A DNA stretch of 44,249 nucleotides. Source: an uncultured Hyphomicrobiales bacterium (GTDB lineage Bacteria; Pseudomonadota; Alphaproteobacteria; Rhizobiales; Beijerinckiaceae). The DNA lies in NCBI GenBank assembly GCA_903851305.1, contig CAINNX010000155.1:1-44249 (forward strand), given 5' to 3'. The number at the start of each line of letters is the position of its first letter. Within the stretch, counting starts at the first letter, position 1. The notes beneath the pieces are model-generated. The model was given only the letters and a program-made list of their open reading frames with translations, had not been told where the DNA came from and searched no databases. The translations under genes and the position numbers were made by a program. Positions 4,456-30,574 of this stretch are shown piece by piece.

Positions 4456-4457
4456 TG

Positions 4458-4468
4458 TTGTATTACAC
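4458..4468. promoter_or_regulatory. Candidate GntR/FCD operator
   Basis: The sequence TTGTATTACAC contains the palindrome TGTA-T-TACA (4459-4467). It fits the general GT-N3-AC pattern of FadR/FCD-type GntR sites. It is three bases upstream of the GntR start codon in the divergent intergenic region, a position suited to autorepression and control of the 4529 operon. Family knowledge plus position; not proven. Confidence 0.45.
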
Positions 4469-4528
4469 CTGTCATTCCAGCTGGGTTCAAGTCCCCCATT
4501 CTGGTTTACGGCGCAAGAAAATCGTAGT

Positions 4529-5731: not shown

Positions 5732-5768
5732 CGGATTTTGTTGTCCACTTTGATCAGAGGGCTTGCAC

Positions 5769-6992: not shown

Positions 6993-7011
6993 CGGCGCGC
7001 GCGGCTGAGAC

Positions 7012-7881: not shown

Positions 7882-8853
7882 ATGACATCCATGATATTGC
7901 CTCCGAAACAGCCTGCAGCGCGCCGCTTTGTATTTGTTGCCATGGTGCTGGCCTGTGTCGTGCTGTCGCCGCTGGCCGTCCTCAGCGGTTATGGGCTCGA
8001 TGTCATTACCGAGATCATGATTTTTGCGATCGTGGCGGTGAGCCTGAACCTCATTCTGGGCTATGGCGGCATGGTGTCATTCGGTCATGCGGCTTTCTTC
8101 GGCCTTGGTGCCTATGCGACCGTGCTCATCTCGACACGATATGATGTCAGTCCCTGGCTTGGGCTTGCCGGGGGCGTGGGGACGGCCACGGCTGCCGCCA
8201 TTGTGATTGGCGCCTTCTGCGTGCGCCTCGGTGGTGTCGGCTTTTTCATGATGAGCCTGGCCTTCGCGCAATTGCTGAACTCGGGCGCGATCAAATGGCG
8301 ACCGTTGACCGGCGGTTCGGACGGCGTCGGCGGATTGCTTCGTCCGGAACTTTTCGGGTTCGATCTGTCCGATGCGGGCCCGATGTATCTGTTCACGGCC
8401 GCCGGTCTTGTCGGCGTGCTGCTGTTCATGCGGATGGTGATCGCCTCACCTTTCGGACATGCGATGGTGGGAACCCGCGAGAGCAGCCTGCGCATGGATG
8501 CGATCGGCTACCAGACGCGCCGCATCCGCCTCGCTGCCTTCGCGGTTTCGGGCGCCATCGCTGGCTTGGGCGGTGCCTTATATGCCTTTTACAATGGCTT
8601 TGTTTCGCCCGACGCCCTCTCGTTTGGCATGTCGGGCATGATCCTTTTGATGGTGATCCTCGGGGGCAAGGGGTCGCTGCTGGGACCAGTCCTCGGCGCC
8701 GGTCTGTTCCTGTCCGTCAAGAACATTGTCAGCACACACACCTCCCACTGGCTGCTCATTGTCGGCTGTATTTTCGTGGCCTGCGTCATGGTCTGTCCGG
8801 ACGGCATTCTCGGTTTTGGCAAAAGGCTTTTCCGATCAGGTGAGCGACGCTGA
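7882..8853 (+). CDS. livM: ABC transporter permease, LivM type
   Basis: A 323-residue polytopic membrane protein. The signature AIVAVSLNLILGYGGMVSFG (roughly residues 50-70) is followed by HAAFFGLGAYATVL, and the conserved loop MILLMVILGGKGSLLGPVLG is near the C-terminus. Partner of the preceding LivH-type permease. It starts directly after the livH stop and shares one base with livG (TGATG). Confidence 0.93.
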   Translation: MTSMILPPKQPAARRFVFVAMVLACVVLSPLAVLSGYGLDVITEIMIFAIVAVSLNLILGYGGMVSFGHAAFFGLGAYATVLISTRYDVSPWLGLAGGVGTATAAAIVIGAFCVRLGGVGFFMMSLAFAQLLNSGAIKWRPLTGGSDGVGGLLRPELFGFDLSDAGPMYLFTAAGLVGVLLFMRMVIASPFGHAMVGTRESSLRMDAIGYQTRRIRLAAFAVSGAIAGLGGALYAFYNGFVSPDALSFGMSGMILLMVILGGKGSLLGPVLGAGLFLSVKNIVSTHTSHWLLIVGCIFVACVMVCPDGILGFGKRLFRSGERR

Positions 8854-9590
8854 TGCTGCGGCTTGAAAACATCTCCAAGGCTTTTGGAAGCCTCGTCGTG
8901 TCCAATTCCGTGACGCTCGACGTCACTGCGGGTCAGCGTCACACCATCATCGGCCCGAACGGCGCGGGCAAGACGACGCTGATCAACCAGATCGGCGGCC
9001 AGCTCTCCCCCGATAGCGGCAAGATCTTCCTGCATGGCCAAGAGATCACGCGACTTTCCGCCCCCCTGCGGGCGCGCGCTGGTCTCGCCCGCACATTTCA
9101 AAAAAACACCTTGTTTCAGGCGCTGTCTGTGTTCGAAAACGTGCGGCTCGGCGCGCAGGCGGCGCATGGCCGGACTTACGATCTCTTTCGCAGCTGGCGC
9201 AGTGACACGGGAGTCCTGGCGCAGGCAGAGCAGGCGATCGAGCAGATGAACCTTGGACGGATCGCGGCGCAGCCTGTCGGCAAATTGTCCTACGGAGATC
9301 TTCGCCAAGTTGAAGTCGCCGTCGCGCTCGCCACCAGCCCCACGGTTTTGCTGCTTGACGAACCGACGTCTGGACTGTCGCCGAGCGAGACCGCGCAGAT
9401 GATCGATGTCCTTCGCGCGCTGCCGCGCGAGATCAGCATCCTGATGATCGAACATGACATGGAGGTCGTGTTCTCGATCGCCGACCACATCACCGTCCTC
9501 TATTATGGTGAAGTGATCGCCAGCGGCGCGCCACGCAACGTCGCGGATGATCCCCGTGTGCAGGAAGTCTATCTCGGAGCTCCGCAATGA
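8853..9590 (+). CDS. livG: ABC transporter ATP-binding protein, LivG type
   Basis: A 245-residue ATPase. Walker A reads GPNGAGKTT, the signature region is LSYGDLRQVEVAVALA (LSYG in place of LSGG), and Walker B reads VLLLDEPTSGLS, followed by the switch histidine in ILMIEHDMEVV. ARAGLARTFQKNTLFQALSV is the LivG-type Q-loop. It energises import together with the LivF-type partner. It overlaps livF by four bases. Confidence 0.94.
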   Translation: MLRLENISKAFGSLVVSNSVTLDVTAGQRHTIIGPNGAGKTTLINQIGGQLSPDSGKIFLHGQEITRLSAPLRARAGLARTFQKNTLFQALSVFENVRLGAQAAHGRTYDLFRSWRSDTGVLAQAEQAIEQMNLGRIAAQPVGKLSYGDLRQVEVAVALATSPTVLLLDEPTSGLSPSETAQMIDVLRALPREISILMIEHDMEVVFSIADHITVLYYGEVIASGAPRNVADDPRVQEVYLGAPQ

Positions 9591-10285
9591 GTCTCGTTGT
9601 CGAGAAGCTCAATGCCTTTTATGGGGCGAGCCATATTCTGCACAACGTTTCGCTCCATGTCGGCGAAGGAGAGATCGTTTCGCTTCTGGGTCGAAACGGC
9701 GCGGGCAAAACCACGACGCTCCTGTCGGTGATGGGATATCTTGCGCCGCGGCCCGGCAGCATCCGGTTTCAGGGCCGCGAAATCGGCGGACTGGCGCCCC
9801 ACCGCGTGTCGCGTCTCGGCCTAGGCTTTGTGCCGCAGGAGCGTGGCATTTTCAAAAGCCTGACGGTCGAGGAGAACCTTTTGGTGGCGGCCCGCCCGGG
9901 CAAGGCCGCGCGCTGGTCCCTTCCGGACGTCTATCGCATGTTTCCCCGTCTTGAGGAGCGACGCGCGTTCCGCGGCACCAAGTTGTCGGGCGGCGAACAG
10001 CAGATGCTCTCGATTGCGCGGGCTTTGCTGCTCAATCCACAATTCCTGATTCTCGACGAACCCTCCGAGGGGCTGGCTCCGCTGATCGTCCAGGACATTA
10101 TGGCCATCATCCGCAGCGTCCGCGATGCTGGCGTGGCCGTGCTCATCATCGAGCAGAACATCAGGGTCGCGCTCGCCATCGCCGACCGCCATTACATCCT
10201 GAACAAGGGCGCGGTGACCTTTCGGGGATCCAGCGACATGTTGCAGGCCAACCCGGGCCTTCTGCGCGAGCAGCTTGCCCTGTGA
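9587..10285 (+). CDS. livF: ABC transporter ATP-binding protein, LivF type
   Basis: A 232-residue ATPase. Walker A is GRNGAGKTTTLLSVMG, the signature is LSGGEQQMLSIARALL and Walker B is FLILDEPSEGLAP, with IIEQNIRVAL as the H-loop equivalent seen in LivF (Gln-Asn in place of His-Asp). The Q-loop region LGLGFVPQERGIFKSLTVEE is typical. It completes a full HAAT importer (binder, two permeases, two ATPases). Confidence 0.94.
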   Translation: MSLVVEKLNAFYGASHILHNVSLHVGEGEIVSLLGRNGAGKTTTLLSVMGYLAPRPGSIRFQGREIGGLAPHRVSRLGLGFVPQERGIFKSLTVEENLLVAARPGKAARWSLPDVYRMFPRLEERRAFRGTKLSGGEQQMLSIARALLLNPQFLILDEPSEGLAPLIVQDIMAIIRSVRDAGVAVLIIEQNIRVALAIADRHYILNKGAVTFRGSSDMLQANPGLLREQLAL

Positions 10286-10319
10286 CTCAAACGACGCGCG
10301 CTTGAACGCAACAGCGAGA

Positions 10320-11183
10320 ATGACGATGACGGATGAAAACAAAAAGACAATCGGCCTTGTCGGCATTGGCCGCATGGGTCTGGCGATCACGAAACATCTG
10401 ACGCACCATGGCTACAAGACCATCGTCAATGACCTCGACGCGGGCCAGTGCGATGCCGCAGCCAGGGACCATGGCTCGCGCGTGGCCGGAACGCCTGCCG
10501 AAGTGGGTGCTGCGGCGCGCTTTGTTATTATTGCCGTCGGCTTCGATGACGAGGCCACGCAGGTTGTGCTTGGCCCGGGAGGCCTGATCGAGACCATGCC
10601 TACTGGTTCGATTGTCGCCGTTTCATCGACCTGCACGCCCGACCACGTCAAATGGCTCGCGAAAAAACTTGCCGTGAAAGGAATCCGTCTCGCCGACGCG
10701 CCGATCTGCCGTGGCGCCAAGGCCGCGGACGAGGGCACGATGCTGACGCTTGTCGGCGCGTCGGAGGAGGTTTTCGCGATCCTCGATCCCGTCTATCGAA
10801 CCTTTAGCTCACAGGTCGTGTTGCTCGGCGATGTAGGTGCCGGCCAGTTCGGCAAGTCGATGAACAATTTCCTGCTGTGGGTAAATGGCATCGCCCTGAT
10901 CGAGGCCGGTCGTCTCAGCGAGGCGAATGGCGTGGATCTGGTTCGTTTGCGCGACGCCCTGCTTCTCGGCTCCGGAGCCTCGGACGCCTTGCAGAACTGG
11001 GAGAATGTTTCCTTCATTTGGGCGCTGAAGGACATGCAGATCGTCAGCAAGATCGCGGATTCCGTCGGGCTCTCTATGCCTGTCGCCGGGGCGATCAAGG
11101 AACTCGTCAAGGATGGCTTGCGCATCAAGCAGCAGAACCCTCCCGACTGGACGGGACGCCTTTCGAAGACCAAGGCTCCTTGA
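10320..11183 (+). CDS. NAD(P)-dependent beta-hydroxyacid dehydrogenase family protein
   Basis: A 287-residue protein of the 3-hydroxyisobutyrate/6-phosphogluconate dehydrogenase superfamily. It has an N-terminal Rossmann motif, GLVGIGRMGLAITKHL, and the catalytic-lysine region GDVGAGQFGKSMNNFLLWVN. The substrate loop is DAPICRGAKAADEGTM, whereas classic members read DAPVSGG, so the substrate may differ from simple hydroxyisobutyrate or tartronate semialdehyde. The ATG at 10326 is an alternative start with better spacing to GCGAG. It lies 34 bases after livF and is probably the last gene of the operon, reducing or oxidising a product of the imported compound. Confidence 0.85.
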   Translation: MTMTDENKKTIGLVGIGRMGLAITKHLTHHGYKTIVNDLDAGQCDAAARDHGSRVAGTPAEVGAAARFVIIAVGFDDEATQVVLGPGGLIETMPTGSIVAVSSTCTPDHVKWLAKKLAVKGIRLADAPICRGAKAADEGTMLTLVGASEEVFAILDPVYRTFSSQVVLLGDVGAGQFGKSMNNFLLWVNGIALIEAGRLSEANGVDLVRLRDALLLGSGASDALQNWENVSFIWALKDMQIVSKIADSVGLSMPVAGAIKELVKDGLRIKQQNPPDWTGRLSKTKAP

Positions 11184-11660
11184 TGCAAGCTGGGGCCGTA
11201 GGTCCCGTGTCCGAAAGAGCTTCAGAGCGCCCCTGATCAAGGGACGTTTTCGTTTCACGCCTCCAAATGGCAGTGGCTAAACTGGCGGACAAACCCGGCG
11301 AGTAGCCGAATGCCTTGATGGAACTGGTAGGAAAGGTGTCGAGCGATTTGCAAGCCACCATTCTCGCCCGGATCAAGTTGTTTGCGGAGTGGATCCGCAG
11401 TTTTAGGGAAACATCACTGTCGGCGATGTTCAGGGAAACCATAGCTTCGAATCTCGAGGGGGCGGACAAAATCGAGCCCCTGACGACGCTCCCTTTGACC
11501 GCACGTGTTCGTGAGATCAGGTGCTCGGAGAGACCTTGAGGCAGTGCGCGTTTATTTGGGATAGACATGGTTCCTGCTCGTTGGCGAGCGATGCGTAGCA
11601 GTGATGTGCGTTCGGTAAAGGTGGCTGCAGGTCCCCGCAGCCAACATTCCAAAAAAAGTC
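11184..11660. other. Non-coding or cryptic intergenic stretch
   Basis: About 480 bases between the dehydrogenase gene and the terminator, with no recognisable gene. An open frame on the minus strand (about 11125-11652, containing an ATG at about 11568) could encode up to 175 residues, but it runs into the 3' end of the dehydrogenase gene on the other strand and resembles no family I know. A hairpin GGCTGC (11623-11628)/GCAGCC (11637-11642) is present without a T-tract. It may contain a decayed gene; nothing can be asserted. Confidence 0.4.
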
Positions 11661-11664
11661 AAAA

Positions 11665-11705
11665 TTAAAAAAATAAGAAAACCTCTCAATCAGAGAGGCT
11701 TTTGT
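11665..11705 (-). terminator. Bidirectional intrinsic terminator
   Basis: CCTCTC (11682-11687) and GAGAGG (11693-11698) form a stem with a 5-base loop. On the minus strand it is followed by a strong U-tract (complement of 11665-11681), ending the UbiD/molybdenum-hydroxylase/TTT operon. On the plus strand a weaker T-rich tail (11699-11710) follows. Confidence 0.8.
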
Positions 11706-11784
11706 GTTTGCGGACGCTCGCGCTTTTGTGTCAGCGACAGATCCCAATTTGATGCTTGCTGTGTAGTCCGAAGGGAACTTCAAT

Positions 11785-12858
11785 TTACTCGGCAATCGAC
11801 TCTATCAGAAGCTTCTTGATCTCCAGTGTCACCTTGCCCATCAGATCCAGCACGCGTTCGACTTCTGCAGCCGATGCCATATCCGGCTTTTCCTGATTGA
11901 TGCGTTCATATTCTTCGAGATAAGCGGCATCTTTGCGCAAAGCTTCAAATCCTTGCCGTAGAGCGGATACGGCTTCCGGCGGAGAGCCGGTCGGCAGGAA
12001 AAACCCGCGCTGCAATTTTGTTGCAATATTGTTCACCTGCAACAAAGCCTCATAGCGCACGCCGGAGGGTTCTTTACCGAAAGCCTTCTTATAGACGACG
12101 CTATAGGCTTCGATCCCTTGCGCATCCAGCGCAGGATTGCCCGACGGTTTTCCATCATCGCCGATGACATCATAATACCAGAGCGGCATGCCGATGCCTG
12201 GCGTAATAATATTGGGAATGACCTGCGTGCGATAAGCAGGCAGCGAGCTCGCTGTCATATTGATCTCGTTCTGGATAAACGCCTTGTTGAGGTCACCAGC
12301 AGTCGGAAAGCCTGTTACGGGTTTGTAGGGTACGTTCATCACTTCGAGTGCGAGACGAAGCCGCGTATCATGCGAGGCTGCTTTGCTATAGCCACCGGTA
12401 AACATGCGTGTCGCCTTGCCGATGTCGGCGGGTACGACGAGGCCGGGCGGGGAATCCTTGCGCGCATAGGCAATTGTCCAGCCGCGCCACCCGCCGATGG
12501 CCACATAGGCTTTTTCAAGCCGGATTTTCAGCGTCGGCGCATCGACCAGAGGCTCTACGGGGCTCACAGTAAAAAAGCCGCCGGTCATGCCATCAGCTTT
12601 TGAATTGATATTGAGACCCAACATATTCATTCCGAGCGCGCCGCCTGCACCCGGGATATTCTGGATGATAATGGTCGGTTGGCCCGGAATATGGCGGGTA
12701 ATATGGCGCGTCATAATGCGCGCATCCGTGTCGACATTGCCGCCCGCGCCGTAATTGACGATCACCGAAATCGTTTTGCCTTCATAAAAAGGCGTTTGCG
12801 CAAATGCCGGTGCGAGAGACAGGCAAAGCCCGCCAAGAATTGAAAGACCGCGACGCAT
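11785..12858 (-). CDS. TTT-type (Bug family) solute-binding protein
   Basis: A 357-residue exported receptor. The start at 12858 follows an AAGGGAGA ribosome site and gives a classic Sec signal (MRRGLSILGGLCLSLAPAFA, then QTPFYEGKT). Mature motifs of the tripartite tricarboxylate transporter receptor family are ISVIVNYGAGGNVDTDARI, HIPGQPTIIIQNIPGAGG and VPYKPVTGFPTAGDLN. Such periplasmic proteins bind carboxylates, usually through their carboxyl group. It is the last gene of the leftward UbiD/molybdenum-hydroxylase operon, suggesting that it delivers that pathway's substrate. No TctA/TctB membrane partner is in the window. Confidence 0.87.
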   Translation of the reverse strand: MRRGLSILGGLCLSLAPAFAQTPFYEGKTISVIVNYGAGGNVDTDARIMTRHITRHIPGQPTIIIQNIPGAGGALGMNMLGLNINSKADGMTGGFFTVSPVEPLVDAPTLKIRLEKAYVAIGGWRGWTIAYARKDSPPGLVVPADIGKATRMFTGGYSKAASHDTRLRLALEVMNVPYKPVTGFPTAGDLNKAFIQNEINMTASSLPAYRTQVIPNIITPGIGMPLWYYDVIGDDGKPSGNPALDAQGIEAYSVVYKKAFGKEPSGVRYEALLQVNNIATKLQRGFFLPTGSPPEAVSALRQGFEALRKDAAYLEEYERINQEKPDMASAAEVERVLDLMGKVTLEIKKLLIESIAE

Positions 12859-12887
12859 GATGTCTCCCTTATCGTGAATGCCAATTT

Positions 12888-14357
12888 TCAAGCAGGTGGT
12901 GTTTCGCCCTTCAGGAGCCAGCCGAATTTTTCCTGCGCACGACGCATCAATTCATGGCTCGGCGCATTGCTCGGCGGGAATTTATCCATCCAGTGATAGG
13001 GCTTGCAGGCATTGATAAGTGCAACTGAATGCGTCATGTCGCCCACCGCGCGCCGGTCCGGCGGTAGAGCCGGGTCGGCACCAGAATCCCATGATCCGCG
13101 GATGAACTGGATGGATTCAACAGGATCTGTGCGTGTCAGCATGGCCCAGAGGACATTGTCAAGATTGGTGACATCGACATCGTCATCGACCACGACAATA
13201 TATTTCGAGGCATAGGCGGAGGCGCCACATTGTGCTGCAATATGGGCCGCTTGCACGGCATGACCTGGATAGCGCTGTTTGATCGCAACCGCATGGAACA
13301 TGCGCGCGCCTCCGACTTCGTGACACCATACCTGACGCACATCCGGCACGCCGGCATTGGTCATATTCTGTTTGATCATTGCCGAGCGCATGACCGCGCG
13401 ATAGCGCGCCATTTCATCGGGTCCTGCACCCATCGGCGGCACACCGAGGAGAATCGGATCATTGCGGTGATAAATTGCCTTGATGTCGATGACCGGCATT
13501 TGCCGCGCACCGCCCGCATAATGGCCCGACCATTCACCGAACGGCCCCTCGGTCATCATTCGGTCCTTGTTGACATAGCCTTCGAGCACGACTTCGGCAT
13601 GGGCGGGGATGGGCAGGCCTGTCACTTTGCCGCGCACCATGGGCACTGGTTTGCCGCGCATGCCGCCCACCATATCCAGTTCGAATGTGCCGTAAGGCGC
13701 TTCGATGCCGCCGTAGAAAAAGGCGATCGGGTCGCCGCCAAGCACCATGACAATCGGCAGGGCTTCGCCTTTCTTCCAATACTTCTCGCGGTGTAGGAAA
13801 CCATGGTGACCGCGCGCCATGACAATGCCAACCGTGTTGCGGTCATGCACTTGCGCGCGATAGGCGCCCGCATTAAGCCAGTCTTCTTCCGGATCACGGG
13901 TGATGCTGTAGGTGCCGGTCCCGATATAGCGGCCACCATCTTTCTCGTGCCAGACAGGCGCGGGAAATTTCGTCACATCCACCGCATCGCCGGTGAGGAT
14001 GTTTTCAAAGATCGGACCGTCTTCGACCATGACATGGGGAATGCTTTTCGGATTTTCTAAATAAGCGCGGCGATAGGCATCGCTTAATTCCCACTTATTG
14101 AAATGGTCAGGAAAACCCAACGTCATATTGCGACGTTTCCCGGCAAACATATTGAGCAGAAGACGGAAGCCTTTCGGGCAGCCTGGAACTTCGTCAAAGA
14201 GAACGCAAGGCCCGTCTTCCGCACGCAGCACGGCTTCTGCCGCAAGGCCGATATCTTCTTGCCAGGAAGCGCCTTTCACATGGCGTAATTCGCCAAGTCT
14301 CTCGGTTGCGGTCAGCCATTCGCGTAAATCATGATAGGCAATATGCGGTTCGGTCAT
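12888..14357 (-). CDS. UbiD-family prenylated-FMN decarboxylase
   Basis: A 489-residue (de)carboxylase of the UbiD family, which uses prenylated FMN made by a UbiX partner not found here. It shows the cofactor/metal-site stretch TYSITRDPEEDWLNAGAYRA and HDRNTVGIVMARGHHG, and the conserved acidic segment MMTEGPFGEWSGHYAG that carries catalytic glutamates, with SKYIVVVDDDVDVTNLDNVL toward the C-terminus. Start at 14357 behind AAAAGGAC. Known members act on hydroxybenzoates, phenylphosphate, furan- and pyrrole-carboxylates and polycyclic acids. Here it is linked to a molybdenum hydroxylase and hydrolase, which fits an aromatic or heteroaromatic acid. The substrate is unknown. Confidence 0.92.
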   Translation of the reverse strand: MTEPHIAYHDLREWLTATERLGELRHVKGASWQEDIGLAAEAVLRAEDGPCVLFDEVPGCPKGFRLLLNMFAGKRRNMTLGFPDHFNKWELSDAYRRAYLENPKSIPHVMVEDGPIFENILTGDAVDVTKFPAPVWHEKDGGRYIGTGTYSITRDPEEDWLNAGAYRAQVHDRNTVGIVMARGHHGFLHREKYWKKGEALPIVMVLGGDPIAFFYGGIEAPYGTFELDMVGGMRGKPVPMVRGKVTGLPIPAHAEVVLEGYVNKDRMMTEGPFGEWSGHYAGGARQMPVIDIKAIYHRNDPILLGVPPMGAGPDEMARYRAVMRSAMIKQNMTNAGVPDVRQVWCHEVGGARMFHAVAIKQRYPGHAVQAAHIAAQCGASAYASKYIVVVDDDVDVTNLDNVLWAMLTRTDPVESIQFIRGSWDSGADPALPPDRRAVGDMTHSVALINACKPYHWMDKFPPSNAPSHELMRRAQEKFGWLLKGETPPA

Positions 14358-14370
14358 TGCGGAGTCCTTT

Positions 14371-14859
14371 TCACAGCCGTTTGTCGGGCCGAGAGAGAGT
14401 TTCAAGCGCAGCATCCACCATGCCCTGATAGCCGGTGCAGCGGCACAGATTGCCTGAGAGCTTTTCGCGGATCATGTCTTCGTTGATCTCGGAGGGATCA
14501 GCGTTTTCGCGCAATTCGACAAGCGTCATCAATACGCCCGGGGTGCAGAAGCCGCATTGCAAAGCATGATGGCGCGAAAAAGCATCCTGCAAGGGGTCGA
14601 GTTTGCCGGCTGCATCTGCCAGGCTTTCGACTGTCCGCACGGATCTGCCATCGCATTGCACGGCAAGGATCAGGCAGGAGCGCACCGAGCGGCTGTCGAG
14701 CAAAATGGTGCAGGAGCCGCAAACGCCATGTTCGCAGCCCGTATGTGTGCCGGTGAGATGAAGGCGGTGGCGCAGAAAATCGGCGAGATTTTCGCGCACC
14801 GGCACCTTCAGCCTGTACTGTTTCCCGTTCACTTCGATTGTGATGATGCGCTCATCCAT
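14371..14859 (-). CDS. Molybdenum hydroxylase [2Fe-2S] small subunit (CoxS/XdhC-like)
   Basis: A 162-residue iron-sulfur subunit of a xanthine-dehydrogenase-family hydroxylase. The plant-type ferredoxin cysteines lie in GCEHGVCGSCTILLD, and the second cluster cysteines in CGFCTPG and LCRCTGYQ. It passes electrons from the molybdenum subunit to FAD. The open frame extends upstream, but the ATG at 14859 with GGAAAGGA in front gives the normal N-terminus and overlaps the FAD-subunit gene by eight bases. It precedes the UbiD gene by 13 bases. Confidence 0.94.
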   Translation of the reverse strand: MDERIITIEVNGKQYRLKVPVRENLADFLRHRLHLTGTHTGCEHGVCGSCTILLDSRSVRSCLILAVQCDGRSVRTVESLADAAGKLDPLQDAFSRHHALQCGFCTPGVLMTLVELRENADPSEINEDMIREKLSGNLCRCTGYQGMVDAALETLSRPDKRL

Positions 14860-15706
14860 GGCGCAAAATCCTTTCCAGAACCTCGCGCAGGAGACAGGCT
14901 GCCAGATGCCGCTTGTAATCTGCATCATGATGCAGATCACTTTCTGCTGGCATTTGCGCAGCTTCTTGCGCCAATTTATCGATCAATGCAGGGCTCAGCT
15001 TCTGGCTCGTTGCAAACATTTCCAGCCTGTCGGCGCGCGCCTGAATGGTGCCGAGGCCCGCAAAAGCCATGCGCGCTTCTGTGATGGTTTCTCCAGCAAA
15101 GCGCAAATGCGTCGCGACGGCTACAACAGCAAAGTCACCCGAACGGCGGGCATATTCGCGAAAGCCGTGACGCGTGTCGGGATCACAAATAGGCAGGTCG
15201 ATATGGGTGAGAATTTCATCTTCTGCGAGCGATGTCGTCAGCGGCGCAACGGCAAAATCGCGGAAATTCATGATGCGCGTCCCGCGTCGGCTTGCAATAT
15301 AGAGCTGCGCGTCAAGCAGGGCGCAGACGAGCGGAATTTCGGAAGCCGGATCGAGATGGCACAGGCTGCCACCGACAGTGCCGCGATTACGGGTCTGCTG
15401 GTGACCGATATGGGCAATGGCGTCGGCCAGTACCGGACAATTTTCCTTGATGACAGGCGAGGCAAGTGCATCGGCTTGTCGCACCATGGCGCCGATCTGC
15501 ACAATTCCATCGCGCAGATTGATGCTGTCGAGTCCGTCGATTTTTTCGATGTCGACGAGATGTTGCGGCATGGCGACGCGGAAGTTCATCATCGGCATCA
15601 ACGATTGTCCGCCGGCTATGATGCGTGCATCGGGAAGATCGGCAAGGAGCGTCAGCAATTCGGCCATGGTCTCGGGCCGGTGATAGCCAAAGCCGGCGGC
15701 TTTCAT
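14852..15706 (-). CDS. Molybdenum hydroxylase FAD-binding subunit (CoxM-like)
   Basis: A 284-residue FAD subunit. It has both FAD-contact motifs, AGGQSLMPMMNFR near residue 32 and RGTVGGSLCHLDPASEIP near residue 108. The C-terminal CO-dehydrogenase flavoprotein domain contains EYARRSGDFAVVAVATHL. It overlaps the catalytic subunit gene by four bases (ATGA) and the iron-sulfur subunit gene by eight, so the three subunits are translationally coupled. Electron acceptor unknown. Confidence 0.94.
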   Translation of the reverse strand: MKAAGFGYHRPETMAELLTLLADLPDARIIAGGQSLMPMMNFRVAMPQHLVDIEKIDGLDSINLRDGIVQIGAMVRQADALASPVIKENCPVLADAIAHIGHQQTRNRGTVGGSLCHLDPASEIPLVCALLDAQLYIASRRGTRIMNFRDFAVAPLTTSLAEDEILTHIDLPICDPDTRHGFREYARRSGDFAVVAVATHLRFAGETITEARMAFAGLGTIQARADRLEMFATSQKLSPALIDKLAQEAAQMPAESDLHHDADYKRHLAACLLREVLERILRHG

Positions 15707-18042
15707 GGCGAGCCTCCGGCCTGTGCTTTGCGAATCAGTTTCTGCAATCTCTGCGGTGTGACAGGCAATTGGTTGATTTCGATCTTCAACGGTGCGAGCG
15801 CATCTTCAATCGCCGAGACAATGGCAGCCGGCGCACCGATCGTGCCGCTTTCGGCCGCACCTTTGACACCGAGCGGATTGAGCGGCGTCGGCGATTCCAT
15901 ATGGTGGATTTCTATACGCGGCACATCATGGGCGGTCGGCAGAAGATAATCTGCCAGACTGACGGTGAGAGGCTGTCCCTGCGCATCATGACGAATCCAT
16001 TCGAAAAGTGTGGCGCTGATGCCATGCACGACACCGCCGAGCACCTGTCCTTCGACAATCTGCGGATTGATCATATTGCCGCAATCATGAACGATGACAT
16101 AGCGTGTAATTTTGATGTGGCCGGTGCGAATATCGACTTCGACTTCCGCCAGATGCGTGCCGTTGGTGTAGGTGATGGCCGGCGGCTCGAAATCAACGGC
16201 AGCAAAGAGCCCGGGCTTCATGCCGCCAGGTAAAGCAAAGCCCGCATTGCCGCTGAGGGTTTTGGCAATCTCGCCAAAGCTCTTCTTCATGGAGGCAACG
16301 CCTTTCACCTGCACAAAGCTGTCCCGCAATTCGAGGTCATCGGCAGAGACTTCGAGAAGATGGGCGGCGGTCTGTTTGATCTTTTGTGCAATTTCAAGCG
16401 AGGCCGCATGCAGGGCATTGCCCGCCGTGACAGTCTGGCGGCTGGCATAGGCGCCAAGGCCCATGGCAATCGCATGTGTATCGCCGCACGTGACGTCAAT
16501 GACCTCGGGGCGTACGCCCAGAACTTTTGCCGCAATATGCGCAAGCATGGTTGATGTGCCCTGCCCCTGCGAGGCTGCACCGCTGGCGACCAAAATTTTT
16601 CCCGACGGCCCGATGCGCAGCGAGGCTGTTTCGAACGGGCCGCGCCCAGTGCCTTCCACATAATTGGAGAGACCGAGGCCAATCCATCGGCCCTTTTCGC
16701 GCGCTGCTTTCTGGCGTGCCAGAAAATCATGCCAGCCGGCCGCCTCCAATGCGCGCCGCTGGCATTCGGGATAATCGCCGCTGTCATAGGTCATCGGCAG
16801 TCCGTCGCGCGTCAGCACTTGCGTGACATAGGGAAGCGCATCGGCGGGGATCAGGTTGCGTCGGCGGATCTCATCGCGACCGATGCCCAGTTTGGCTGCC
16901 ATGCGGTCGAGCAGGCGCTCCATGACAAAAGTGCCTTGCGGACGACCAGCGCCGCGCGTCGATGTGGTCGGCGTTTTATTGGTTAGGCATAGCGAAACGT
17001 CGAGTTTGTAGGTAGGCAGAATATAGGGGCCGATCAGATTGGTCGTCGAATTCTGCGGCAGCTGGATGCCCGATGGCGTGCAGGCGCCGTGGTCATGCAA
17101 TAGCGTGCCGCGAATACCGAGCAAGCGGCCGTCTGCATCGAACGCGCCTTCGACATCCCAATATTGATCGCGTTCCTGATTGGTCGAGATAAAATTCTCG
17201 TAACGGTCTTCGATCCATTTCAGCGGCTTTTGCAAAAGCAACGCTGCCGCACTGACGGCGACTTCTTCCGCATAGACGGGGCCTTTCGGGCCAAAGCCGC
17301 CACCGACATCAGGCGCGATCACGCGGATCTGGTTTTCATTGAGGCCCAAAGTGGTAACCAGCACACGCTTCACGCGGTGGGGCATTTGCGTGCTGTCCCA
17401 GACGGTCAAAACACCGTCAAGCGGATCGGGTCGCGCCAAAAGCCCGCGTCCTTCCATCGGAATGGCGCCCCCCTTGTGCAATTCGAAAGAGGCTGAAATC
17501 TTATGCGCGGCTTTTGCAAAAGCACTTTCGCAATCGCCATAGCCGATGGTCCAGCGGGCGACGCAATTATCCGGTTGGTCGAGGCGCGTGCGCGGACTGT
17601 CGGGCGAAAGACCCGCGCGGATCTCAGTGACCGCAGGCAAAATTTCGGCATCGATTTCGATGAGTGCTGCCGCATCTTCGGCAATGGCGCGCGTATCCGC
17701 GACCACCATGGCAATCGGCTCGCCGACATAACAGGCTTCATCTTTTACCAGAATACAAGGATCGACATGAAAGTGGATGGCGCTGGCGGGTGTTGCTGCC
17801 GGCAGACGCTCGCAGGTCAGAACCTCTTTCAGATCGGCCAGCGTCAGAACAGCATGCACACCGACAATTTTTTCGGCCGCGCTTTTGTCGATTTTTCCGA
17901 TCCGTGCATGCGCATAGGCGCTGCGCAAAAAAACAACATGCAAAAGATCAGGCACATCGAGATCATCGACAAAGCGACCCTGTCCGCGCAGCAGGCGCTC
18001 GTCTTCCAGCCGTGCATGTCCGGTTTTTCCGGCGTGCTGCAT
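15703..18042 (-). CDS. Molybdenum hydroxylase catalytic (Moco-binding) subunit
   Basis: A 779-residue aldehyde oxidase/xanthine dehydrogenase-type large subunit. It has the N-terminal a/b hammerhead domain (LLRGQGRFVDDLDVPDLLHV) and molybdopterin-contact motifs DVGGGFGPKGPVYAEE, TSTRGAGRPQGTFVMERLLD and ASGAASQGQGTSTMLA. The catalytic glutamate lies in GVKGAAESGTIGAPAAIVSA near the C-terminus. The active-site loop of true CO dehydrogenase (AYRCSFR) is replaced by TRGAGRP, so CO oxidation is ruled out. It probably hydroxylates an aromatic or heterocyclic ring or an aldehyde using water. Its start shares one base with the hydrolase stop. Confidence 0.93.
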   Translation of the reverse strand: MQHAGKTGHARLEDERLLRGQGRFVDDLDVPDLLHVVFLRSAYAHARIGKIDKSAAEKIVGVHAVLTLADLKEVLTCERLPAATPASAIHFHVDPCILVKDEACYVGEPIAMVVADTRAIAEDAAALIEIDAEILPAVTEIRAGLSPDSPRTRLDQPDNCVARWTIGYGDCESAFAKAAHKISASFELHKGGAIPMEGRGLLARPDPLDGVLTVWDSTQMPHRVKRVLVTTLGLNENQIRVIAPDVGGGFGPKGPVYAEEVAVSAAALLLQKPLKWIEDRYENFISTNQERDQYWDVEGAFDADGRLLGIRGTLLHDHGACTPSGIQLPQNSTTNLIGPYILPTYKLDVSLCLTNKTPTTSTRGAGRPQGTFVMERLLDRMAAKLGIGRDEIRRRNLIPADALPYVTQVLTRDGLPMTYDSGDYPECQRRALEAAGWHDFLARQKAAREKGRWIGLGLSNYVEGTGRGPFETASLRIGPSGKILVASGAASQGQGTSTMLAHIAAKVLGVRPEVIDVTCGDTHAIAMGLGAYASRQTVTAGNALHAASLEIAQKIKQTAAHLLEVSADDLELRDSFVQVKGVASMKKSFGEIAKTLSGNAGFALPGGMKPGLFAAVDFEPPAITYTNGTHLAEVEVDIRTGHIKITRYVIVHDCGNMINPQIVEGQVLGGVVHGISATLFEWIRHDAQGQPLTVSLADYLLPTAHDVPRIEIHHMESPTPLNPLGVKGAAESGTIGAPAAIVSAIEDALAPLKIEINQLPVTPQRLQKLIRKAQAGGSP

Positions 18043-18944
18043 TAATGCCTACCCGTTTTCTGCGTTGGGTTACCCTGTGCGGGGAACCAGGCCGCAAGCC
18101 AGTCTTCGAGCACGCGATGCACGCGCTGGTTATGTTCGGCGAACATGAAATGATCTGTCTCGGCGAAGAGAAACAGATCGGTCGGTGATTCCGATTTTTT
18201 GAAGAGGCCAAGCGCCTGTTCGACCGGCGTTACGGAATCCGAAGTGGAATGCATCAGCAGAACAGGTCGCGGCGTAATCTGTCCGATAACATCTTCCGGA
18301 TTGAAATCGTGAATGCTCTGCGCCGTATCGGCCGTGAATGTCAGGATGGAGCCTTTCAGCACATGGGTGCGCAAGCCCTGCGGGATCGGCACAATGGCAT
18401 AGCGGTCCACCATTAACGGCTCGCCGGTTTTTTCGCGGTGGGCGCGACCGTCTACGAGCATTTTGGTGAAAGCCGCCCATTCGGCATCGCTTTTGTGCTG
18501 CCCGCGGAATTTGCGTGCGCCATGGCCGAAACCTGAAGCTGAAACAACAGCGCCGACGCGCTGATCAATACCGGCAGTGTAAACAGAAATGGCAGCCCCG
18601 AAACTCGAGCCCAGCATACCGATCTTGTCGCCTTGAACATGTTCATGCTGCGCGAGAAAGGTCAGCGCATTGCGCGCATCGGCGACTTGTTCCTGCATGA
18701 TGAGATGGCCGCGCGGGCCCCCGCTCTGCCCGCATCCGCGCTGGTCGTAGCGCAGTGTCACATAGCCGAGTTTTTCCAGAATGGCGCAGGGCGCCAAAAC
18801 ATTGCCTGCTGAACTCGTGCTGCCGAAGCCATGCATGACAATGAAAGCCGGTCTTTTTTGGCCTGCCTTCAGTCCGTCCGGCACGCGGATTGTGCCAATC
18901 AGTTCCACACCATTTGATTGGAAGGCAATTGCTGTCTCGCTCAT
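18042..18944 (-). CDS. Alpha/beta hydrolase (serine hydrolase)
   Basis: A 300-residue alpha/beta hydrolase. The oxyanion region is FIVMHGFGSTSSAGNVLAP, the nucleophile elbow is GMLGSSFGAAISVY (Ser in GSSFG), the acid lies near LLMHSTSDSVTPVEQA, and the catalytic histidine is in AETDHFMFAEHNQ. It is the first gene of the operon, with an AAAGGA ribosome site. An ATGC-N7-GCAT palindrome lies about 40 bases upstream. In context it could open a ring amide, lactone or other ester formed after hydroxylation. No signal peptide is seen, so it is probably cytoplasmic. Confidence 0.87.
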   Translation of the reverse strand: MSETAIAFQSNGVELIGTIRVPDGLKAGQKRPAFIVMHGFGSTSSAGNVLAPCAILEKLGYVTLRYDQRGCGQSGGPRGHLIMQEQVADARNALTFLAQHEHVQGDKIGMLGSSFGAAISVYTAGIDQRVGAVVSASGFGHGARKFRGQHKSDAEWAAFTKMLVDGRAHREKTGEPLMVDRYAIVPIPQGLRTHVLKGSILTFTADTAQSIHDFNPEDVIGQITPRPVLLMHSTSDSVTPVEQALGLFKKSESPTDLFLFAETDHFMFAEHNQRVHRVLEDWLAAWFPAQGNPTQKTGRH

Positions 18945-18984
18945 CAATGTCAGTCCTTTTGGGTGCCGGTCGCGCTTGTCTTCT

Positions 18985-19001
18985 TATGCATGTTCAGCAT
19001 A
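18985..19001. promoter_or_regulatory. Probable LysR operator, copy 1 (hydrolase operon)
   Basis: The palindrome TATGC-N7-GCATA matches the T-N11-A geometry of LysR-type binding sites. It is 41 bases upstream of the hydrolase start. Near-identical palindromes occur at 20039-20055 and 21198-21212. Confidence 0.7.
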
Positions 19002-19022
19002 GGACGGTCCGCAGAAGGCCGG

Positions 19023-19997
19023 TTATGCAAAACCGGCCTCTGCCATGCGTTTCATGTGTCCGGCATTTGATTTGGGTATCGCGAGTGCAGGCTTGTCGAG
19101 CAGTAAATCCAGCAGATAGCGGATCTCGGTGCTCATCTCGCCATAGGCAAGGAAAAAGCCGACGGTGCGATGCTGGAAACTCCAGTCCCCACTCAATGCA
19201 CACATCGTGCCGGCGGCAAGATCGCCTTCCACACTGCGCAGCGGCAAAATGGCAAGATAATCTGATTCCAGAACCAGATTGCGTGTGGCGCCGGGCGAGG
19301 ATGTTTCTACAGAGGCGCCTGGAAAGACAGCGCCTGCCCTACAAAAATCATCACTGACACGGCGATAGAGATCGGTGTCAGAGCGCGGCAAAACCCAGCG
19401 ATATTGCGCCAGATCACGCAAACCATGTTTGCTGCGGCGTGTCAGGGGATGCGCAGCGCGCACGACCACCCGCAAATCCAGATCAAAGCAGGGCTTGAGA
19501 AGAAGATCTTCTTCCTGCATTTGATAAGGAAAAGTCGAGAGAACAAGGTCAAGTTCCTGCAGTCGCAGTCGCGCAATCAGATCGGGGCGTGAGCCTTCGA
19601 CAAGGCGGACTGTGAGTTTGGGAAATCGCTTTTGCAAAGCGTGCAACGCGGGTGCGAGGAAGAAGCTTTCAACCAGCGGCGTCGCGCCTAGTCGCAATGG
19701 TTTTGGGCTGAGCGCAAGCAAAGTTTCCAGCGTGTCTTGCAGGCCCTTTAATTGCTTCTGGATGGCGACAGCGTGGACGAGGGCAATCTCGCCGGCCTGT
19801 GTCAGGCGTACCCCGCGTGCGGAGCGTTCGAACAAGGCCGCACCGATGTCTGCTTCAAGTGCGGCGAGTGAACGAGTCAGCGAGGATTGCGAAATATGCA
19901 GTGCCTCCGCAGCCTTGTTGATGCTGCGGTGTTCGGCAATGGCAATCAATTGGAACAGCCCGGGTATACGCCGGCTGAGACGTTGGATGCTTCCCAT
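19023..19997 (-). CDS. LysR-family transcriptional regulator
   Basis: A 324-residue regulator. The N-terminal winged helix-turn-helix is clear (RSINKAAEALHISQSSLTRS, then LFERSARGVRLTQAG). The C-terminal half is a periplasmic-binding-like effector domain (LRLGATPLVESFFLAPAL, then LVLSTFPYQMQEEDL). The start at 19997 follows GGGAGGGG; the open frame upstream lacks family resemblance. It sits between the two units it probably controls, and an operator-like palindrome lies 42 bases upstream of its own start, suggesting autoregulation. The effector is probably the imported acid or an intermediate. Confidence 0.93.
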   Translation of the reverse strand: MGSIQRLSRRIPGLFQLIAIAEHRSINKAAEALHISQSSLTRSLAALEADIGAALFERSARGVRLTQAGEIALVHAVAIQKQLKGLQDTLETLLALSPKPLRLGATPLVESFFLAPALHALQKRFPKLTVRLVEGSRPDLIARLRLQELDLVLSTFPYQMQEEDLLLKPCFDLDLRVVVRAAHPLTRRSKHGLRDLAQYRWVLPRSDTDLYRRVSDDFCRAGAVFPGASVETSSPGATRNLVLESDYLAILPLRSVEGDLAAGTMCALSGDWSFQHRTVGFFLAYGEMSTEIRYLLDLLLDKPALAIPKSNAGHMKRMAEAGFA

Positions 19998-20038
19998 ATC
20001 CCCTCCCTGCGCCGGTCTTGGCCGACTTTGAGGGAGAT

Positions 20039-20055
20039 TATGCATCCTCTGCATA
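20039..20055. promoter_or_regulatory. Probable LysR operator, copy 2 (lysR promoter)
   Basis: TATGC-N7-GCATA again, 42 bases upstream of the LysR start codon. The arms are identical to those of copy 1 and the distance to the following start is almost identical. Confidence 0.7.
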
Positions 20056-20072
20056 GGGATGCAAAGGGTCTG

Positions 20073-21119
20073 TTATTTGGGGACGGGTGCCTCGCCCGGG
20101 TCCATCACCGCTTTGGCCTGTTCGATCAGGACCGGCGGCGTGTTGAGCACTTCAATCACTTCCGTTTCGAGTTCAGCGCCCGTGCGGTAGGGCAGGTCGA
20201 GGCCGAGCTTCACCGCGTCAACCAGATAATCCTTGTCTTCCATAGTGGCGACAAAGGCGGCACGCAGAGCTTTCAGGCGGTCTGCCGGCACATCGGGCGG
20301 TGCAAGATAGGGGCGGCCGGCATTGGTCGGCGAGGAAATAAAGCGCAGGATTTGCTTTTGCTGCTCGTTCTGGCCGAGCTCTTCCATCAGCGGTACGTTT
20401 TCAAGTCCTTTCTCACGTTTGGGGCCGACTTGTGTGAGAATCGTGATGGTTTTTTTCTCTAGCCATTCGGGGCGTTCCTGCAAGAGCGCGCGCCAACTAC
20501 GCCCGCCCATGCCTTCCACTTCGCCGCGTTCAATCGCCATGTCGATTTCAGGATAGCCCTGATAGCCGGCGATCAATTTGAATTTTGTACCGATGATCTG
20601 GTTCAGCGCATTGGCATAGATGAATGTGCCGGAGCCGACACCGGTTGCGCCCAGAACGATTTCACGCTTCTGCATGTCGGCGATGGATTTGATGCCTGAA
20701 CGTGCGGTCACATAGACAGTCAAATTGCTTTGGCCGATGGCGCCGATCCAACTGAAACGGCGCGCATCATACATGGCGCCGGCACCGCCGACGGCCTGAT
20801 GAACGGCAATGCTGTTGACGAGTGTTGCAAAAGTCGTCCCGTCTTTTGGCGCCTGGCTGTAGAGATAATTGGTCGCGCGCATATGTCCGCCACCTGGCAT
20901 GTTGCGCACAACAAGCGTCGGGTTGCCCGGAATATGTTTGGGCATGAACTGGATGAGAACACGGGCCGCCACATCATAAGGCCCACCGGCAGCTGTCGAG
21001 GCGATCACGCTGATCGTTTTGCCACGGAAGAATTCGGCCGGCGTCTCGGCTTTGAGACTTTGGCTCGAGCAGGTCAGCAGGGCTGTTATCGTCCAGGAGA
21101 GCCTGAAAATTCCGCGCAT
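20073..21119 (-). CDS. TTT-type (Bug family) solute-binding protein
   Basis: A 348-residue exported receptor. The start at 21119 has a GAGGAG ribosome site and opens a Sec signal (MRGIFRLSWTITALLTCSSQ, then LKAETPAEFF). Mature motifs are GKTISVIASTAAGGPYDVAA, HIPGNPTLVVRNMPGGGHMR and LIAGYQGYPEIDMAIERGEV. It lies upstream of lysR on the same strand and opposite the ornithine-cyclodeaminase-family gene, with an operator-like palindrome between them. This suggests LysR control and a carboxylate ligand related to that of the 11785 receptor. No membrane partners are nearby. Confidence 0.86.
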   Translation of the reverse strand: MRGIFRLSWTITALLTCSSQSLKAETPAEFFRGKTISVIASTAAGGPYDVAARVLIQFMPKHIPGNPTLVVRNMPGGGHMRATNYLYSQAPKDGTTFATLVNSIAVHQAVGGAGAMYDARRFSWIGAIGQSNLTVYVTARSGIKSIADMQKREIVLGATGVGSGTFIYANALNQIIGTKFKLIAGYQGYPEIDMAIERGEVEGMGGRSWRALLQERPEWLEKKTITILTQVGPKREKGLENVPLMEELGQNEQQKQILRFISSPTNAGRPYLAPPDVPADRLKALRAAFVATMEDKDYLVDAVKLGLDLPYRTGAELETEVIEVLNTPPVLIEQAKAVMDPGEAPVPK

Positions 21120-21197
21120 GACCAGCTCCTCAGAATTCTTTTCCTTATAGATAACATGCGGTGTCGGGGCCTCAGCAATGCCTTCTTTGGTCTGGTC

Positions 21198-21212
21198 ATG
21201 CAGTATCTGCAT
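21198..21212. promoter_or_regulatory. Probable LysR operator, copy 3 (divergent promoter)
   Basis: ATGC-N7-GCAT, embedded in the longer perfect palindrome ATGCAG-TAT-CTGCAT. It lies in the divergent region between the TTT receptor (start 21119) and the OCD-family gene (start 21354). A half-conserved fourth site, TATGC-N7-GCGAA, is at 21238-21254. Confidence 0.6.
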
Positions 21213-21353
21213 GGGCGTGGGCATCTCCATCCCGCGATATGCTGCGTCTGCGAAGGGTGCGGATGAGCCTGCGGTTGTCAGCTTCCGGTGATTTCCTTAT
21301 GGCTTTGGACATTGGCGCTGCTGCCGGCGTCTGGGGTGGGGACAGGTTTGCAC

Positions 21354-22256
21354 ATGCCGATTTATATCGACGAAGCCCGTGTACGCGATGCACTCGGCAT
21401 TGATGTGGTGATTGCAGCTTTGCGCAAAGCTTTTTTAGCGCAGGCGCAAGGGAGTGTCGTCAATCTGCCGCGCAGCCGTGCAAAGCTGCTTGGCAATTCA
21501 ATGAATATTACGGCGGCAAGTGATGCCGCGAGCGACCGCTATGCAGTGAAAATTTACGGTAGTGGCAATTTCCATATCCATCTTTATGACCGCACGCAGG
21601 GACTTCTGGCGATTTGCGAGGCAGATTGGCTCGGACAATTGCGCACCGGTGCCGCCAATGGTCTGGCGGCAAGTCTGATGGCGCGACCGCAATCGCGGGT
21701 CGTCGGATTGATCGGCGCAGGTCGCCAAGCCATTGCACAATTGCTCGCATTGGAGGCGCTCGGCCTGATGGAAGAGGTCAGCGTCTATGCCCGTCGGCGC
21801 GACAAGCTTGCCGAGTTTTGTGAGCGGATGGGCAAGCGCCTCAGGGCCGACATCCGCATGGCGGATAGCGTGGAGAAGGCGGTGGTGCGGGCAGATATTG
21901 TTGTGACAGCAACCAATGCCTTGAATTTTGTGGTGCCCCGCGCAGCGGTGCGCGCAGGCACGCATATCAATGGTGTGGGGGCCAATGCAGCCAATCGCAT
22001 GGAGATTGATCCTGTATTGGTTGATGTCTGTGCGTTGATCGTGACAGACGATATCGATCAGGCGCGGGGCGAGGCCGGTGAATTTCTGGCGTTGGGAGAA
22101 AAATTTGATTGGTCGCGAGTGCGCCCGCTCTGCGATCTGGTGGCGTCCGGAACATCGGACCGGTCGGACAAAGATATCACTTTCTACAAATCGCTTGGAG
22201 CGGGAATTGAAGATCTGGCAGCCGCATCGGCTCTCTATGATGTGCTGACAGGGTGA
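21354..22256 (+). CDS. Ornithine cyclodeaminase/mu-crystallin family protein
   Basis: A 300-residue NAD(P)-binding enzyme. The nucleotide motif is VVGLIGAGRQAIAQLLALEA (roughly residues 120-139), with DIVVTATNALNFVVPRAAVR, HINGVGANAANRMEIDP and VTDDIDQARGEAGEFL further along, all family hallmarks. Members deaminate ornithine to proline or act as ketimine reductases and amino-acid dehydrogenases. Start at 21354 gives the family N-terminus (MPIYIDEARVRDAL). It is divergent from a TTT receptor and probably in the same LysR regulon, so it may process an amino- or imino-acid intermediate of a nitrogen-containing substrate. The precise reaction is unknown. Confidence 0.88.
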   Translation: MPIYIDEARVRDALGIDVVIAALRKAFLAQAQGSVVNLPRSRAKLLGNSMNITAASDAASDRYAVKIYGSGNFHIHLYDRTQGLLAICEADWLGQLRTGAANGLAASLMARPQSRVVGLIGAGRQAIAQLLALEALGLMEEVSVYARRRDKLAEFCERMGKRLRADIRMADSVEKAVVRADIVVTATNALNFVVPRAAVRAGTHINGVGANAANRMEIDPVLVDVCALIVTDDIDQARGEAGEFLALGEKFDWSRVRPLCDLVASGTSDRSDKDITFYKSLGAGIEDLAAASALYDVLTG

Positions 22257-22311
22257 TCAAAATTCACTCGGTTAAGATTTGACTCATTTGCGTTCTTGGT
22301 CTGCTGGCCAG

Positions 22312-23301: not shown

Positions 23302-23473
23302 CGTATTTTCCTCGCCGCGGCTTACTGAGCTTCTTCAACATAAGTCTTTCTGCTCTGATCAAATGTGTCAATACATAGAGGTAATAGCCTTATTTCCTTT
23401 TGACGAATTTTAGAAAAAAGGAGCAAGATATTGTCGGGCTGCCAAGGTTGTGCGGCGCGAAACGGGGGCACTC

Positions 23474-28128: not shown

Positions 28129-28144
28129 GACGATTCATCTGTCG

Positions 28145-29296: not shown

Positions 29297-29299
29297 GCG

Positions 29300-30469: not shown

Positions 30470-30574
30470 ATCTAGCCTTCAACCATCGCGACGCTGGCGC
30501 GGCAACCAGGCTGGCGGCTTGATGCGCGCGCGTTCTTACTAGCGTAGCTGGAAAGGTTAGGGGGGTAAGCAGAA

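Follow-up and report, generated by a model that had tools for sequence, protein, structure and literature searches.

The minus strand of contig CAINNX010000155.1, from an uncultured Beijerinckiaceae bacterium (assembly GCA_903851305.1), carries six consecutive genes, hyd-moL-fad-fes-ubiD-bug1, between positions 18944 and 11785 of the 44,249-nucleotide stretch that was analysed, here called the window. These genes may form an operon that breaks down a ring carboxylic acid, with an N-heteroaromatic acid as the likeliest candidate. We give this reading a probability of about 45%, which takes in the view, suggested by the gene order, that the six genes are one transcription unit under LysR control. 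It was drawn from the nearest solved relative of the UbiD decarboxylase, which acts on phenazine-1-carboxylate, from the nearest relatives of the molybdenum (Mo) hydroxylase, which act on quinoline and 6-hydroxypseudooxynicotine (with carbon monoxide dehydrogenase, CODH, tied), and from the Mo-hydroxylase and C–C hydrolase arrangement of pAO1.

In the proposed route, a Bug-type receptor would capture the acid in the periplasm for import. The three-subunit Mo-hydroxylase would place a water-derived hydroxyl on an electron-poor ring carbon beside the ring nitrogen, and UbiD, using prenylated flavin mononucleotide (prFMN) made by the genome's sole and distant UbiX, would strip off the ring carboxyl. 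The alpha/beta hydrolase would cleave a C–C (acyl-ring) or lactone bond, and the LysR protein would regulate the unit. The order of steps is left free: of the 15 related loci, 12 have a solute-binding protein gene next to ubiD and five have the Mo enzyme nearby, so the substrate of UbiD may be the imported acid or an early product. An earlier sequence-only reading had proposed a catabolic operon for a furan- or pyrrole-type acid; the ring-acid operon of Mo-hydroxylase, UbiD and hydrolase is supported, the furan or pyrrole substrate is not. Its remark that the set matched no characterised pathway agrees with the searches made of open-licence papers, which brought up no characterised operon with these six genes.

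Gene content and order of the operon

The reading frames, lengths and gene names of the sequence-only reading were all reproduced, as were the overlaps of 1, 4 and 8 bases and the gaps of 13 and 29 bases. All six genes lie on the minus strand. The first, hyd (18042–18944), encodes an alpha/beta hydrolase of 300 amino acids (Hydrolase_4, 3.6e-17). It is followed by moL (15703–18042), the Mo-hydroxylase large subunit of 779 amino acids (MoCoBD_1/2 and Ald_Xan_dh_C), by fad (14852–15706), an FAD subunit of 284 amino acids with an AGGQS motif at residue 31 (FAD_binding_5, 3e-49; CO_deh_flav_C, 6.7e-18), and by fes (14371–14859), a 2Fe-2S subunit of 162 amino acids (Fer2_2, 4.3e-27; Fer2, 1.1e-10). 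Next come ubiD (12888–14357), a UbiD-family prFMN decarboxylase of 489 amino acids (UbiD, 4.2e-63), and bug1 (11785–12858), a divergent Bug/TctC-type periplasmic receptor of 357 amino acids recognized by profile matches to TctC/Bug-type chains. Pfam backs five of these six assignments. The 29-base gap between ubiD and bug1 presupposes the bug1 ATG at 12858; a TTG at 12891 would instead give a 4-base overlap with ubiD.

A gene for a LysR-type regulator (19023–20054, minus strand; HTH_1, LysR_substrate) lies directly upstream, preceded on the same strand by a second TctC-like receptor gene, bug2 (20073–21230; TctC, 2.6e-5, below the Pfam cut-off). In a Rhizobiales metagenome-assembled genome (MAG; genome G398, locus L005) the order receptor-LysR-hydrolase-moL-UbiD-receptor is kept at 73–90% protein identity, down to the same 1-base hyd-moL overlap, which argues that the arrangement is more than chance. 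The operon had been described as ending at a single terminator. A terminator-like hairpin of 10 pairs with a T-rich tail is indeed present 82 bases past the end of bug1 (11702–11678, minus strand), although the scan gave 16 such sites against 14.4 ± 4.2 in shuffled sequences, so that only the position of the hairpin, and not the site count, argues for a terminator.

The UbiD decarboxylase

By family, the operon UbiD is a predicted prFMN-dependent decarboxylase. R167, E270 and E275 are invariant across 16 aligned sequences and match the Glu-Arg-Glu/Asp network named in PMC5818171. Against NCBIfam the protein scored 247.2 bits, barely above the general subfamily cut-off of 244.85 and short of those set for the six named families given with it. 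The closest solved UbiD by sequence was 7PDA (E = 3e-102), by its title the phenazine-1-carboxylate decarboxylase PhdA of Mycobacterium fortuitum (Mycolicibacterium fortuitum), followed by HudA (2.5e-53), with HmfF at 4e-38. Identity to PhdA was 36% in the structure alignment and 38.9% by BLAST over the aligned part, the latter obtained with the identical protein of locus L004 (see below).

In a tree of 25 rows, from which three long rows of an earlier UbiD tree were excluded, PhdA joined an 82%-identical Streptomyces protein with support of 100/100. The window protein lay in a separate group of 19 rows (100/99), outside the PhdA clade, and so does not belong to the PhdABC type. One protein, L007_7892, attached to the PhdA group at 92/86 in what was flagged as a long-branch join. 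Close relatives of this UbiD are rare in the order (three of 397 genomes at a stringent cut-off, the window's own genome counted), and UbiD was found in only 16 genomes of a 61-genome sample of the order. The own genome has a single UbiX match, on another contig (C137).

Two further observations concern UbiD genes in general. Contig C116 of the own genome (locus L035, 1306–5927) carries a second UbiD, 29% identical to the window's; next to it are genes for the large subunit of a Mo-hydroxylase (35%) and for a 2Fe-2S subunit (46%). UbiD genes are also expanded in the 15 genomes that hold the related loci (G397–G411), with 3 to 32 matches per genome and 239 in total.

The molybdenum hydroxylase

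The protein MoL had quinoline 2-oxidoreductase as its best Protein Data Bank (PDB) match (1t3q, 9e-145), closely followed by 8uem (6e-144) and 7dqx (2e-143). The large, FAD and 2Fe-2S subunits and the catalytic glutamate of an XDH/Qor/Kdh-type hydroxylase are all present: the catalytic base E731 corresponds to E748 of KdhL, and Y532, at the position of Kdh W551, corresponds to Qor Y545. The loop at residues 361–366 reads STRGAG in the window and in L004, L005, L010 and L017, and SSRGAG in L007. The Kdh residues E748, W551 and E345 and the CODH loop AYRCSF were taken from an extract of PMC8305194.

Two identities were rejected on these residues. Form I CO dehydrogenase would carry AYRCSF in place of STRGAG, and nicotine degradation proper would call for the Kdh amine clamp, whose E345 is I326 in the window.

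The alpha/beta hydrolase and the furan alternative

The hydrolase has the motif GSSFG and, by its sequence, a putative S114/D236/H265 triad. Its best PDB match was 7qjm (1.7e-44), and MHETase-like 9pjb matched at 1.2e-25. In NCBIfam it showed a weak likeness to the UilS lactonase, at 92.8 bits against a cut-off of 400.

This likeness bears on a different route, for an O-heterocyclic (furan or pyran) acid without coenzyme A (CoA), in which UbiD would decarboxylate, the Mo enzyme would hydroxylate beside the ring oxygen to give a lactone, and the hydrolase would open the ring as a lactonase. The parts of PMC6678421 that were available describe a Mo-dependent furoyl-CoA dehydrogenase, the UbiD-type HmfF and a lactone hydrolysis with no assigned gene, all of which would suit such a route, while the absence of HmfD- or HmfE-type genes among the six and the much greater closeness of UbiD to PhdA than to HmfF speak against it. 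We consider it very unlikely. The known furoate pathway, which by the same partial source uses the 2-furoyl-CoA synthetase HmfD and the proposed thioesterase HmfE, was lowered in rank. A Pfam search confined to the six genes found no furoyl-CoA synthetase or thioesterase, nor is there a CoA-ligase or UbiX among them, and UbiD is not HmfF-like. The pyrrole-2-carboxylate (HudA) route was lowered on the sequence scores of UbiD only. The furoate and pyrrole-carboxylate suggestions of the sequence-only reading are not supported by these results.

The Bug/TctC receptors

No Pfam or NCBIfam family matched bug1 at E = 0.001, and its assignment as a receptor rests on profiles. A four-sequence profile matched the TctC/Bug-type PDB chains 4x9t (8.5e-7) and 2dvz (7.3e-6) over about 50 to 80 residues near the start, and its alignment to a TctC-type set spanned 308 columns, with a probability of 99.8%. 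An AlphaFold model of bug1 from four rows had a mean predicted local distance difference test score (pLDDT) of 47, too low for the model to be of use.

Receptors of the tripartite tricarboxylate transporter (TTT) family are known to bind ring acids, Bug27 taking nicotinate and TphC terephthalate according to the excerpted text of PMC8556258. The earlier proposal of a receptor dedicated to the operon is plausible, but weak alone: the own genome has 64 TctC-type matches, so that adjacency is poor proof of dedication, and no TTT permease was found by Pfam among the 10 window proteins scanned. Most of the TctC-type receptors of this genome appear to lack a permease of their own, with five TctA permease matches to the 64.

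Conservation of the gene neighbourhood

In a pattern scan of one genome per species (84,980 species), close UbiD relatives turned up at 15 loci. The genome-neighbourhood search that had been suggested as a check recovered the full block in L004, the block without fad and fes in L005, and a pairing of UbiD with a Mo-hydroxylase in L007, L010 and L017. L004 lies in a Beijerinckiaceae MAG from a lake (genome G397) and has the same operon, at 98.5% DNA identity over window positions 11609–24357. In L005, bug2-lysR-hyd-moL-ubiD-bug1 are kept, with 63 bases (9917–9979) between the intact moL stop and the ubiD ATG. L010 and L017 have ubiD-moL-fes, and in L007 a moL belonging to the same clade lies 6.8 kb from ubiD.

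Support for the 14-row UbiD clade is 100/100, and its Mo-linked members (L004, L005, L007, L010, L017) occupy both sub-branches. The linked moL genes form one clade of seven rows (100/99), which includes two extra copies from the L005 genome and adjoins the Devosia/Bradyrhizobiaceae copies. Because the Mo-linked UbiDs fall in both sub-branches while their moL genes fall in one clade, an old UbiD–Mo pairing with later losses is the simplest reading; independent gains may also have produced it.

In 12 of the 15 loci no more than 250 bases separate ubiD from a solute-binding protein gene, and in nine an alpha/beta hydrolase gene (four queries) lies within 5 kb. In six of the seven Xanthobacteraceae loci (L006, L008, L009, L011, L012, L018) ubiD adjoins an NMT1-type binding protein, identified by Pfam for L009 and by 83–86% identity to the L009 protein for the other five; an FrsA-like hydrolase lies within 5 kb in five of these six, L018 being cut inside ubiD. 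In the four Devosia/Bradyrhizobiaceae loci ubiD adjoins a TctC-type receptor gene.

One further island was noted in the L017 genome (locus L092, G410:C23, 181–17381), where a UbiD (42%), a Mo subunit (51%), a luciferase-like match (25%) and TctC-type receptors lie together with a 57% homologue of window gene 22312–23301.

Evidence against the proposed route, and alternatives

A number of results weigh against N-heteroaromatic acid breakdown by the six genes acting together. The first group concerns the Mo enzyme. A Mo large subunit of at least 60% identity lies within 7 kb of ubiD in only five of the 15 loci, and since L004 and the window come from almost the same organism, four of these five count as independent. 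In L005 neither fad nor fes was matched between moL and ubiD or elsewhere in the locus; L010 and L017 had no fad match, and L007 had a match to neither. A test of UbiD–Mo proximity in general, by eye, used the same 15 genomes, which had been chosen for carrying this UbiD and hold 426 MoCoBD_1 matches in addition to the 239 UbiD matches; of each kind 150 were listed. The 15 clade members, placed by coordinates by eye, were dropped from the 150 UbiDs listed, leaving 135. A listed Mo subunit lay no further than 10 kb from 12 of these 135, one of which belongs to the L007 locus. With a rough density expectation of about 6 of 135 (contig ends ignored, no formal statistics), the signal is weak. As to the substrate, the MoL bit scores for quinoline oxidoreductase (487), CODH (484) and Kdh (483) are tied, and the Kdh amine clamp is replaced, as given above.

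These figures suit a reading with no single pathway, in which only UbiD and the receptor would truly belong together, with the Mo enzyme and the hydrolase carried along in a mosaic catabolic island. The contrast between 12 of 15 loci for the solute-binding protein and five of 15 for the Mo subunit agrees with it, as does the absence of fad and fes from L005. The L005 genome has two more moL-clade copies: L055, which runs into the contig end, has fad, and L060 has both fad and fes. Neither has a ubiD match in the surrounding stretches examined. UbiD and Mo-hydroxylase genes are so abundant in the 15 genomes that they can be neighbours by chance. A whole-genome search found a Mo-subunit match at E = 1e-135 in all 15, and at 60% identity or more in five. 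The translational overlaps along hyd-moL-fad-fes speak against this reading, and the distribution of Mo-linked UbiDs over both sub-branches with their moL in one clade fits the old pairing with losses. We regard this reading as unlikely.

A second group concerns the decarboxylase. In structure comparison HudA (Z = 40.2) and PhdA (Z = 39.1) were about tied; the AlphaFold model used 15 rows and had a pLDDT of 72.8, low at residues 410–464. By Pfam, no phdB (UbiX)- or phdC-like gene is among the six. A UbiD 57% identical to the window's (L019, 15001–16431) lies inside the phthalate island of Aromatoleum EbN1 plasmid 2, beside ABC-transporter and porin genes, and another of 54% (genome G267) is near CoA-transferase, UbiX-type and UbiD-like genes of a phthalate-type group; phthalate is a carbocyclic acid. 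UbiDs of similar distance in L037 and L024 had no such group in the partly annotated stretches around them.

These relatives would suit a carbocyclic route, in which the hydrolase would split an aromatic (phthalate-like) ester, UbiD would decarboxylate, and the Mo enzyme would serve a later or different step. MHETase-like enzymes among the best matches of the hydrolase and the uptake of terephthalate by TphC are in keeping with it. The solved phthaloyl-CoA decarboxylase 8oz5, however, is remote from the operon UbiD (3e-15), and the operon holds no CoA-transferase or CoA-ligase. In this family of Mo-hydroxylases the substrates are N-heterocycles, aldehydes, CO or thioesters; plain benzene rings are not known to be among them, which is a further point against this route. 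We judge it unlikely. The phthaloyl-CoA pathway itself was lowered for the distance of UbiD from 8oz5 and the missing CoA transferase.

The last group concerns the hydrolase. That of the window may not belong to the 2,6-dihydroxypseudooxynicotine hydrolase subfamily: its nearest relatives are 7qjm and MHETase-like enzymes, and 2jbw, the solved member, did not appear among the 44 PDB matches that it gave at E = 0.001. A 2jbw homologue (1.9e-37) does occur in L017, divergent from ubiD-moL-fes and 166 bases away, and L010 has a copy of this type, cut off by the contig end, at 1.4 kb. The hydrolase subfamilies differ between the window and its relatives. The missing fad and fes of L005, the ten loci lacking a moL of at least 60% identity, the hydrolase differences, the score tie and the phthalate-type UbiD relatives together keep the alternatives alive.

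For the N-heteroaromatic reading, a more specific form was considered, that an unnamed UbiD branch near PhdA but not in it, together with a Mo-hydroxylase and a C–C hydrolase, makes up an undescribed N-heteroaromatic carboxylate route carried by an old, reshuffled Rhizobiales module. This is possible but doubtful. Few UbiD branches have a known substrate, and no characterised member was found in this one. The gene order links the branch to receptor, Mo-hydroxylase and hydrolase genes, and so limits the candidate substrates to ring acids open to screening, and the solute-binding protein beside ubiD in 12 of 15 loci makes the receptor ligand a way into the substrate. If the N-heteroaromatic reading is correct, uncultured lake and soil Rhizobiales may use this route to turn over nitrogen-ring acids of alkaloid, quinoline or phenazine-like kinds.

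Surroundings and origin of the operon

The G+C content of the window is 54–62% between 4 and 22 kb, against about 53% ahead of this stretch and 46–52% beyond it, and the GC-richer stretch on which the operon sits was probably acquired. Positions 3663–11190 encode a luciferase-like monooxygenase (best NCBIfam matches SfnG and RutA, both under cut-off), a branched-chain-type ABC transporter and an NAD-binding dehydrogenase. This flank is 93% identical in DNA to another contig of the L005 genome (G398:C641, L080), compared with 76–78% for the operon against L005, and was not found as a block in the L004 genome, although the operon is present there. The flank is a probable recent transfer. On both counts, the operon and the transporter flank appear to have been acquired separately; the contrast may also stem from a chimeric contig.

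Ahead of the flank, a thiamine pyrophosphate riboswitch (326–458; 54.8 bits against a gathering score of 54.3) stands at the start of a DAO-family gene, followed by two open reading frames that by eye resemble thiG and thiE. In the L004 genome thiamine genes lie about 100 kb from the operon on the same contig. Beyond bug2, a divergent gene of the ornithine cyclodeaminase/mu-crystallin family (21288–22256, plus strand; Pfam) is also found in L005, at 62.5%. Window genes 22312–23301 and 41261–42235 encode related proteins of one cluster, with no Pfam match at 1e-5 and no NCBIfam match at 1e-15; proteins like them are often annotated as 4,5-dihydroxyphthalate decarboxylase. Positions 26047–43949 look like a second, acyl-CoA catabolic region, with an acyl-CoA dehydrogenase nearest PimD and a short-chain dehydrogenase/reductase nearest BadH (both under cut-off), an enoyl-CoA hydratase/hydroxyacyl-CoA dehydrogenase, a CoA-transferase and two thiamine-diphosphate enzymes (NF006203, over cut-off).

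Comparison with known systems

Five characterised systems share parts of the operon. PhdA is the nearest solved UbiD by sequence, and its residues aligned with R167, E270 and E275 are identical to them. In the accessible portion of PMC13040415, phdA forms a three-gene operon with the prenyltransferase gene phdB and with phdC, whereas the present operon has Mo-hydroxylase, hydrolase and receptor genes, no phdB or phdC was seen, and its UbiD is in a different clade. The hmf furan pathway (HmfABC, HmfFG) likewise joins a Mo-dehydrogenase and a UbiD decarboxylase in one pathway, but the six genes include no CoA synthetase, thioesterase or UbiX and their UbiD is unlike HmfF. The anaerobic phthalate island of Aromatoleum EbN1 holds the 57%-identical UbiD; it also has CoA transferases, a PhtDa-type UbiD (the phthaloyl-CoA decarboxylase WP_011255033, according to a portion of PMC8988006), UbiX and a tripartite ATP-independent periplasmic (TRAP) transporter, with no Mo-hydroxylase annotated in the 31 kb examined.

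The two remaining systems resemble the Mo-hydroxylase. Quinoline 2-oxidoreductase QorLMS is the top MoL match and shares the tyrosine at the Y545 position, but its loop is AYRGVG where the window has STRGAG, and its score is level with those of CODH and Kdh. In the nicotine plasmid pAO1, the genes of the three-subunit Kdh (6-hydroxypseudooxynicotine dehydrogenase) adjoin that of an alpha/beta C–C hydrolase, 2,6-dihydroxypseudooxynicotine hydrolase (PMC6122326, in part). The operon shares a three-subunit Mo-hydroxylase beside an alpha/beta hydrolase gene and the catalytic glutamate, and differs from the pAO1 system in the clamp residue, in the nearest relatives of its hydrolase and in its additional UbiD.

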